Assembly (NCBI RefSeq): GCF_001441535.1
Contig: NZ_LMAU01000001.1
Span: 248,001-312,000, forward strand
Direction: 5' to 3'
Source: Tsuneonella troitsensis
GTDB lineage: Bacteria > Pseudomonadota > Alphaproteobacteria > Sphingomonadales > Sphingomonadaceae
DNA length: 64,000 bases
Positions within the stretch are counted from its first letter, which is position 1, and each line of letters begins with the position of its first letter. The translations under genes and the position numbers were made by a program. Under the pieces are notes generated by a model. It did no database searches. It worked only from the letters and a program-made list of their open reading frames with translations, and had not been told where the DNA came from. Positions 23,429 through 24,544 of this stretch are shown piece by piece.

Positions 23429-24544
23429 ATGTCTGACCTCGACGTCCTGGTCATCGGCGCCGGTGTCGTCGGCTTGGCGGCCGCCCGCGCCCTGGCGTTG
23501 GCGGGCCGGGAGGTCGTCGTTGTCGATCGACATGGCGCGTTCGGCACTGAAACCTCGTCGCGCAACAGCGAGGTCGTCCACGCGGGTATCTATTATCCCC
23601 CCGGGTCGTTGAAGGCGCGCATGTGCGTTGCCGGTCGCGACGCCCTTTATCGCTATGCAGCCGAACGGGATATTGCGCTCAAAAGGTGCGGGAAGATCAT
23701 CGTCGCCAACGGAGATGCGGGGAAATCGGGGCTGGAAGCGATTGCCGCGCGAGCGAAGGCCTCCTTAGCGGGCCCCCTTGATACACTGGATCGCGCGGCG
23801 ATCGCGAAACTCGAACCTGAGGTGACCGCCGAGTTCGGCCTGTTGAGCCCCCTGACGGGGATTATCGACAGCCACGCACTGATGCTTTCCTATCTCGGAG
23901 ATCTCGAGAACGCGGGCGGAGCGTTTGCCCGCAATACCAACGTCAGGGCAATCGATCGCGGACCGGACGGCTTCATCGTCGAGATGGATGCCGGGGCCAC
24001 GCTCGCTGTCGGCCATATCGTCAACGCCGGCGGCCTTCGTTCGGACGCGATCGCCCGCTCGATCGCGCCGTTGGGCGATGCGTTCAAACCAACGCTCCGC
24101 TACGCCCGAGGGGTCTATTTCAAGGCACTCAACGCGCCCCGATTCCGCCGCCTCGTCTATCCACTCCCTACGGAGGCGTCGCTGGGCACGCATGCTACCA
24201 TCGACCTGACGGGTGCGGTACGGTTCGGTCCGGATGTCGAATGGATCACCGATCCCGACGACTACCACGTCGACCCGCACCGTGCCGAGCAATTCGCCCA
24301 AGGCATTGCCGACTACTGGCCTGCCGTGGATCCAAGTCTCCTCGTTCCCGATTATGCCGGCATCAGGCCGAAGCTTGTCGGCCCTGGCCAGCCGCCAGCG
24401 GACTTCCGCATCGATGGCCCGGCGGATCACGGTATCGCCGGCCTGGTCAGCCTTCACGGCATCGAAAGCCCTGGATTGACCGCATCGCTGCCGCTCGGCG
24501 ATCTGGTGGCACGACGGATCTTCGAGCCGCCACTTGCGCCTTGA
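23429..24544 (+). CDS. FAD-dependent oxidoreductase of the L-2-hydroxyglutarate oxidase (LhgO/L2HGDH) family
   Basis: A 371-residue flavoprotein. The FAD-binding GAGVVG is at 10-15, and [20 protein letters not shown] (43-62) closely matches the LhgO signature around the flavin. The family oxidises L-2-hydroxyglutarate to 2-oxoglutarate and passes electrons to oxygen or quinone. Such a gene is unexpected in a glycan locus. The WbpB-like enzyme encoded here is expected to make 2-hydroxyglutarate while recycling NAD+, so this protein may return it to 2-oxoglutarate. That link is inference. A related 2-hydroxy-acid or sugar substrate cannot be excluded. Confidence 0.8.
   Translation: [371 protein letters not shown]

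Follow-up and report, generated by a model that had tools for sequence, protein, structure and literature searches.

A predicted L-2-hydroxyglutarate oxidoreductase gene accompanies an SDR–AsnB module, rather than WbpB, in polysaccharide loci of the Sphingomonadales

What does a flavoprotein resembling an L-2-hydroxyglutarate oxidase do in a locus for polysaccharide synthesis? The question is raised by a 64,000-nucleotide stretch of the Tsuneonella troitsensis genome (contig NZ_LMAU01000001.1, positions 248,001 to 312,000; hereafter the window), in which a gene at 23429–24544 encodes an LhgO-like flavoprotein and the surrounding genes suggest, by their family matches, a UDP-GlcNAc3NAcA-type pathway. 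An earlier reading of the DNA, made without database searches (the sequence-only reading), had proposed that the flavoprotein re-oxidizes the 2-hydroxyglutarate formed when WbpB, a nucleotide-sugar C3-dehydrogenase, reduces 2-oxoglutarate. We find that the flavoprotein is associated with a module consisting of a short-chain dehydrogenase/reductase (SDR) and an AsnB-type amidotransferase rather than with WbpB. At a probability of just under 40%, our favored explanation is that the module SDR sheds its electrons as L-2-hydroxyglutarate (L-2-HG), which the flavoprotein re-oxidizes, a scheme for which we infer the substrate, the SDR chemistry, the electron acceptor and the structure of the sugar.

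The open reading frame (ORF) at 23429–24544 exists as the sequence-only reading had described it and contains the 20-residue signature given there. Its product matched Pfam DAO over residues 5–363 with an E-value of 8.3e-57, which excludes a chance match. The best NCBIfam model was the LhgO equivalog NF008726, which has a cut-off of 299 bits; the protein scored 184.9 bits, over residues 5–269 only. At this score it is a relative rather than an equivalog of LhgO, and it is 25% identical to Escherichia coli LhgD. Membership of the “LhgO family”, as it had been put, thus holds for the superfamily and for the pocket residues, and not at the level of the equivalog. The nearest solved structure by sequence was 3dme (341 bits, E = 8.8e-101, residues 2–361), a near full-length homology, followed by the Drosophila L-2-hydroxyglutarate dehydrogenase (dmL2HGDH) 8w75 with 116 bits and the glycerophosphate oxidase 4x9m with 58 bits. 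3dme is the “conserved exported protein” Bp3253 of Bordetella pertussis, which has no assigned function in the dmL2HGDH report (PMC10726252).

In dmL2HGDH, the substrate is contacted by S88, H92, Y289, L299, H302 and R393, and the flavin adenine dinucleotide (FAD) by V90 (PMC10726252). All seven residues are kept in the window protein, as S47, H51, Y244, L252, H255, R313 and V49, respectively. They are also invariant in the corresponding proteins of three other genomes of the order (G176, G137 and G204) and of the Agrobacterium plasmid RAC06, in two LhgO equivalogs, in E. coli LhgD, and in 60 of 60 further relatives, which were half of the 120 retrieved. Bp3253 keeps the dmL2HGDH substrate residues as well, and a similar specificity has been suggested for it (PMC10726252). 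Since all seven residues that we checked are invariant, a substrate resembling L-2-HG is well supported for the window protein, which is predicted to be an oxidoreductase of L-2-HG or of a close L-2-hydroxydicarboxylate.

The neighborhoods of such genes were surveyed in one order and in plasmids. Among 397 genomes of the order, 49 had a relative of the flavoprotein (E ≤ 1e-30), 10 a relative of WlbA (E ≤ 1e-80) and 15 a gene of the PaWbpB class (E ≤ 1e-50); WlbA and PaWbpB are two classes of C3-dehydrogenase. The flavoprotein was not found in the eight congeners listed in the sample (E ≤ 1e-30). A presence matrix was compiled from the surroundings of the WbpB and WlbA matches, in stretches of 20 kb at most, with G074 included. 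With the module defined as an SDR at least about 76% identical to the module SDRs plus an AsnB of at least 65% identity, six genomes had it: that of the window, G176, G137, G204, G239 and G118. Its constant members are the SDR and AsnB. The second aminotransferase (AT2; at least 49% identity) and the acetyltransferase (at least 65%) were present in five of the six loci, all except G118, while the methyltransferase varied; AT2 was also present on RAC06. An AT2 relative was not found in the 60 kb around the G118 locus, which ruled out a fixed SDR–aminotransferase pair as the core of the module.

All six module genomes had a flavoprotein in the locus, of either the 3dme type or the LhgO type. The module was missing from 19 genomes with WbpB or WlbA; 13 of these had no flavoprotein at E ≤ 1e-30, three (G046, G026 and G020) had one on the same contig at a distance of 174 kb to 1.9 Mb, and three (G040, G043 and G076) had one on another contig, the G076 stretch being only 4.4 kb long. 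LhgO-type genes, which can score near the E-value cut-off, were absent from the stretches of the non-module genomes that were examined. The nominal Fisher p-value was 5.6e-6 for 6/6 versus 0/19, and 1.3e-5 versus 0/16 when the rows with the gene on another contig were dropped; these values ignore relatedness, and overstate the case because the loci are related.

The module accompanied WlbA in the window, in G176 and on the Agrobacterium plasmids RAC06 and MA01, and WbpB in G137, G204, G239 and G118; the class of the dehydrogenase is therefore immaterial. Taken by themselves, the last four genomes had suggested that the flavoprotein tracks WbpB. In G137 and G204, which belong to one genus, a 3dme-type gene lies ≈230–240 bp upstream of the PaWbpB-class gene, and in G239 and G118 a true LhgO (344 and 347 bits, respectively, against the NF008726 cut-off of 299) follows wbpB-wbpD-wbpE and sits directly between wbpE and the SDR gene, with genes overlapping or abutting. 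The presence matrix overturned this notion, since the flavoprotein tracked the SDR–AsnB module.

The plasmid database PLSDB yielded 17 records at the limits used, seven with WbpB and ten with WlbA. The module was found on two of them, RAC06 and MA01, both of which carry a 3dme-type gene. (The 45 plasmid records with a flavoprotein match had been obtained before the module was recognized.) The MA01 matches have the same spacing as those of RAC06, as judged from match positions only. On RAC06, AsnB is followed by an ArnA-like formyltransferase, consistent with the N-acylation of a newly introduced 4-amino group. Among the other 15 plasmids, UR115 had a relative at a distance of ≈72 kb from its WlbA-like gene, and none of the others was among the 45 records; LhgO-type genes were checked in the stretches of 11 of the 15. 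The Lawsonia and Smac51 plasmids encode AsnB (55–56%) and AT2 relatives, with no SDR of the module type and no flavoprotein in the stretches examined (40 of 65 kb for Smac51). Together with G118, which has the SDR, AsnB and LhgO and lacks AT2, these plasmids point to the SDR as the partner of the flavoprotein. A comparison of viral contigs with the AsnB protein gave no relative.

We propose that the module, made up of the SDR and AsnB and usually of a 4-aminotransferase and an N-acyltransferase, would act on UDP-GlcNAc3NAcA, the product of the WlbA, WbpD and WbpE steps. The SDR would oxidize C4 of the nucleotide sugar, keep the resulting NADH tightly bound, and re-oxidize it with 2-oxoglutarate, producing L-2-HG. 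The 2-oxoglutarate would be supplied from glutamate by WbpE and, where present, by AT2, which is predicted from its family to aminate C4 using glutamate, with release of 2-oxoglutarate. The FAD-containing flavoprotein would then turn L-2-HG back into 2-oxoglutarate and hand the electrons on, probably to quinone. AsnB probably forms a hexuronamide; a 2,3,4-triamino-hexuronamide is found at the end of Bordetella O chains.

A 4-aminotransferase needs a 4-ketone, and a 4,6-dehydratase would be unexpected on a uronic acid; we infer that the SDR must be a net dehydrogenase with NADH to discard. The window SDR carries the GxxGxxG and YxxxK motifs as GGAGLIG and YGATK, and shares 75–77% identity with its counterparts in four other module loci. 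A precedent for the proposed chemistry is Cj1427, which we take to be an SDR. This C4-dehydrogenase holds NADH tightly, and NAD+ does not readily displace it; oxidation of the NADH by 2-oxoglutarate yields L-2-HG in a ping-pong mechanism (PMC10680097); the requirement for 2-oxoglutarate has been confirmed (PMC7949155). An L-2-HG oxidase would close such a loop with the right enantiomer, and would explain why the module occurs with WbpB and WlbA alike and why, in G239 and G118, lhgO stands between wbpE and the SDR gene. In E. coli, lhgD sits with glaH, gabD and gabT, so that a source of L-2-HG, CsiD/GlaH, is encoded beside it. CsiD/GlaH was not found in the T. troitsensis genome, which fits the SDR as the source of L-2-HG.

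Several observations weigh against this scheme. By sequence, the nearest relatives of the SDR are 4-epimerases and 4,6-dehydratases, the nearest models all scored below their cut-offs, and there was no chain named Cj1427 among the 60 PDB matches listed for it; the SDR could be a redox-neutral 4-epimerase. One of the six loci, that of G118, is without the expected C4 amination; a 4-ketone, if made there, must have another fate that the amination step does not explain. The flavoprotein and SDR genes are 12.7 kb apart in the window and ≈30 kb apart on RAC06, where the flavoprotein gene marks the edge of the locus and is read from the other strand. The module loci are of common descent and do not count as independent cases, and the cut-off of E ≤ 1e-30 is close to the G239 match (1.0e-31), so that weaker LhgO-type genes outside the stretches may be missed. 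Most 3dme-type genes are found elsewhere: 31 of 40 fetched stretches contained no other window gene, and neither did 73 of 80 named loci, counting matches above 90 bits. Finally, in three genomes of one genus (G498, G584 and G656) the flavoprotein gene adjoins a PglC-like gene in the absence of the module, and a nucleotide-sugar-dehydrogenase-like gene is close by.

The incomplete account of C4 amination in G118 favors a different role for the flavoprotein, in which it would act directly in the glycan pathway, oxidizing a nucleotide sugar or a hydroxy-acid for N-acyl decoration without any recycling of 2-hydroxyglutarate. Its tie to a single biosynthetic module is consistent with such a role, as is the range of reactions and substrates among members of the DAAO family (PMC10726252). 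The retention of all seven dmL2HGDH residues argues against it, and so does the replacement of the 3dme type by a true LhgO, above the curated cut-off, in G239 and G118. We consider a direct role rather unlikely.

The distribution of the family bears on a further explanation, that the flavoprotein is an accessory gene for metabolite repair or catabolism that travels with polysaccharide islands and has no biochemical tie to the module. Its presence in 49 of the 397 genomes, the lack of other window genes in most of the stretches inspected (31 of 40), the marginal position on RAC06, and the copies beside PglC-like genes all speak for this. They are set against the 6/6 versus 0/19 distribution, with the qualification on relatedness given above, and against the filling of this role by a second type of enzyme, in overlapping or abutting genes. 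In a phylogenetic tree, the LhgO-type proteins of G239 and G118 formed a fully supported group with E. coli LhgD, separate from every 3dme-type protein. The AU test did not reject one common origin for the five 3dme-type module proteins (p = 0.567). On this tree, at least two enzyme types occur with the module, which amounts to at least two recruitments. An unconnected traveling gene is in our view unlikely, and the scheme of L-2-HG recycling for the SDR remains the one that we favor.

The 80 named loci were the best of 210 in the 3dme-type family, and some of their stretches ended at contig ends. Seven of them (L004, L011, L018, L032, L055, L075 and L078) had some other match to a window gene; none had a match above 90 bits to WlbA, the bi-domain oxidoreductase or the heparinase. 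No consistent partner of the whole family emerged: the largest real cluster of neighbors, represented by an ABC-transporter ATPase, occurred in 9 of 80 loci, and two larger clusters (21/80 and 14/80) had as representatives antisense ORFs that overlap the flavoprotein gene at one end. In G584 (L188:9483-14863), the next four genes on the strand of the 3dme-type gene, beside the PglC-like sugar transferase, encode SDRs, and L055 and L075 each have an SDR gene directly after the flavoprotein gene on its strand; these adjacencies carry no control for how often SDR genes adjoin any gene.

The sequence-only reading had placed WbpB in the same locus as the flavoprotein. There is a WbpB-like gene in the window, at 7005–8045, and its product belongs to the WlbA class, scoring 573 and 526 bits with the chains 3q2i and 3q2k and 36 and 27 bits with the WbpB-named chains 3o9z and 3oa2. 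As a control, the PaWbpB-class protein P0002, from a locus of the G137/G204 type, scored 399 and 342 bits with 3oa2 and 3o9z, respectively. No PaWbpB-class gene was found in the T. troitsensis genome at E ≤ 1e-50. We take 3q2i and 3q2k to be the WlbA proteins of Chromobacterium violaceum and B. pertussis, respectively. The WlbA enzymes of these two organisms are reported to have sequential mechanisms, and WbpB of Pseudomonas aeruginosa a ping-pong mechanism with 2-oxoglutarate (PMC10622841). The class assignment therefore suggests a sequential mechanism for the window enzyme, not ping-pong with 2-oxoglutarate.

The idea of a loop between WbpB and a 2-hydroxyglutarate oxidase is already in print for the D enantiomer. 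In P. aeruginosa PAO1, WbpB makes D-2-hydroxyglutarate (D-2-HG), coupling of WbpB with the D-2-hydroxyglutarate dehydrogenase D2HGDH was described in 2021, and the lowered O-antigen of a D2HGDH mutant may stem from inhibition of WbpB by D-2-HG (PMC8651671). The concept of a loop thus holds for the D enantiomer, and the product is the wrong enantiomer for an LhgO-type enzyme, an outcome that the sequence-only reading itself had named as a refutation and that applies to the P. aeruginosa enzyme (PMC8651671). Genomic co-occurrence, another expectation, was seen in 4 of the 15 WbpB genomes of the order; 11 of the 15 (three of them limited by contig ends) and all seven WbpB plasmids were without the association. 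WbpB or WlbA is thus doubtful as the partner, and despite the gene orders in G137, G204, G239 and G118 and the loop known from P. aeruginosa (PMC8651671), oxidation of 2-hydroxyglutarate made by the C3-dehydrogenase is very unlikely to be the function of the flavoprotein, given the D product (PMC8651671), the reportedly sequential mechanism of the window's class (PMC10622841), the genomes and plasmids without the association, and the presence of the flavoprotein in module loci with WlbA.

Two observations concern possible D-side enzymes. On the Deinococcus radiophilus plasmid pRadio1 (L246:3272-6529), a WbpB-class gene has glcF and two FAD-linked oxidase genes, of a glycolate-oxidase-like kind, ≈1.4 kb upstream of it on its own strand; these could serve in the removal of D-2-HG. 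The T. troitsensis genome encodes two FAD-oxidase_C (PF02913) proteins (G000:C5:157655-158377 and G000:C4:235497-236249), a family that presumably includes D-2-hydroxyglutarate dehydrogenase and glycolate oxidase.

The annotated genes of the window locus are collected in Table 1. A flippase gene lies between the acetamidino genes, which extend to 19705, and the flavoprotein gene. At 15170–16243 the window encodes a WbmS-like polysaccharide deacetylase domain (PF22537); the name WbmS presumably comes from the wbm O-antigen locus of Bordetella, and would fit kinship with that pathway. Two ORFs of the locus, 48–1490 and 19713–20951, matched nothing in NCBIfam or Pfam at the thresholds applied. 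Downstream, at 26037–29801, a bi-domain oxidoreductase (ADH plus Gfo/Idh/MocA) is followed by a heparinase II/III protein, and the bi-domain gene adjoins HisH/HisF relatives in 6 of the 20 stretches returned. A tie between the flavoprotein and this cassette was rejected: the bi-domain gene was present in 30 of the 397 genomes, with the flavoprotein nearby only in the window and G176, where proximity was judged by contig positions and pairs on different contigs give no distance.

Table 1. Genes annotated in the polysaccharide locus of the window, with the basis of each assignment.
Predicted product	Position	Strand	Basis and remarks
WecB/WbpI-like UDP-GlcNAc-type 2-epimerase	5782–6930	+	TIGR00236, 315 bits, above cut-off
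WlbA-class Gfo/Idh/MocA UDP-GlcNAcA 3-dehydrogenase, not PaWbpB class	7005–8045	+	PDB matches
WbpD-like N-acetyltransferase	8042–8635	+	Family match; accompanies WlbA/WbpB in most loci compared
WbpE-like 3-aminotransferase	8632–9741	+	Family match, locus comparison
SDR, GalE-like extended family, predicted nucleotide-sugar C4-dehydrogenase	9741–10736	+	Pfam Epimerase; start chosen at MDITGKK
PseC/ArnB-like aminotransferase (AT2)	10769–11920	+	PseC model, 300 bits, below cut-off
AsnB-type amidotransferase	12010–13884	+	TIGR01536, 417 bits, above cut-off
Hexapeptide acetyltransferase	13863–14474	+	NCBIfam; relative in 5/6 module loci of the order
Methyltransferase, variable module member	14323–15441	+	Pfam; start uncertain, listed ORF overlaps preceding gene
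WbuX-type N-acetyl sugar amidotransferase	16956–18314	+	NCBIfam
HisH2-like glutaminase, acetamidino pathway	18316–18939	+	NCBIfam
HisF2/AglZ-like acetamidino modification protein	18824–19705	+	NF038364, 322 bits, above cut-off; true start probably at about 18944
LhgO-like (3dme-type) DAO flavoprotein	23429–24544	+	371 aa, ATG start; Pfam DAO, NCBIfam, PDB, residue alignment
TviB/WbpA-like nucleotide-sugar 6-dehydrogenase	24624–26015	+	TviB model, 424 bits, below cut-off of 592

The proposed system can be compared with four known ones. It shares with Bp3253 a flavoprotein that matches over nearly its full length and has the same L-2-HG substrate residues. With LhgO/LhgD and CsiD/GlaH it has in common the flavoprotein superfamily and the S/H/Y/L/H/R pocket, and true LhgO takes the place of the 3dme type in G239 and G118; unlike that system, the window protein reached 185 bits against the cut-off of 299, and no CsiD was found in its genome. 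As with WbpB and D2HGDH in PAO1, a nucleotide-sugar dehydrogenase would reduce 2-oxoglutarate and a second dehydrogenase re-oxidize the 2-hydroxyglutarate (PMC8651671), whereas the enantiomer there is D and the enzyme D2HGDH, and here an L-type oxidase is tied to an SDR module. The chemistry proposed for the module SDR, with C4 oxidation, tight NADH, L-2-HG and ping-pong kinetics, is that of Cj1427; the Cj1427 substrate is a GDP-heptose, the accessible text on it describes no partner oxidase (PMC10680097), and the proposed likeness to the module SDR is one of chemistry. Among the literature matches listed for L-2-hydroxyglutarate or 2-oxoglutarate with sugar pathways, a search for which subscription literature was mostly outside the scope, were the WbpB paper on D-2-HG and a review covering Cj1427; no listed title tied LhgO to a sugar locus.

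A similar arrangement was seen outside the module. Four plasmid loci with relatives of the G239 LhgO were examined, of 40 listed from 188 records, and were picked by high rank or by neighbors with sugar-related names; they document the arrangement and give no measure of its frequency. Three Deinococcus plasmids carry the order rfbF-lhgO-SDR-rfbC (L262:8231-13194, L264:8166-13095 and L265:7166-12089), with genes abutting or overlapping, lhgO directly before the SDR gene, and a gene annotated as Gfo/Idh/MocA or SAF after rfbC. The LhgO proteins of the two that were scored reached 578 and 583 bits, and the SDR is only distantly related to that of the module. This operon is possibly a second, unrelated nucleotide-sugar pathway using an L-2-HG shuttle. 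In the fourth locus, from Solidesulfovibrio magneticus, an LhgO-type gene (328 bits) lies among sugar genes.

In some nucleotide-sugar dehydrogenases, re-oxidation of trapped NADH by 2-oxoglutarate makes 2-hydroxyglutarate, a possible inhibitor, as for WbpB and D-2-HG (PMC8651671). D-2-HG has a known route of disposal through D2HGDH, and the accessible text on Cj1427 assigns none to its L-2-HG (PMC10680097). As a tentative generalization from the SDR–AsnB module and the Deinococcus rfbF-lhgO-SDR-rfbC operon, LhgO-type flavoproteins may serve specifically to draw off the electrons of nucleotide-sugar dehydrogenases that are ping-pong SDRs, and an L-2-HG shuttle, assembled more than once, may link C4 oxidation of surface sugars to the respiratory chain. 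If so, LhgO-type genes in surface-polysaccharide loci would represent the route of L-2-HG disposal, and would mark loci in which a sugar is oxidized by a ping-pong SDR, which would aid the prediction of sugar structures and the in vitro construction of such pathways. Part of the large 3dme family would also gain a function, and L-2-hydroxyglutarate would have a role in bacteria beyond the breakdown of lysine and glutarate.

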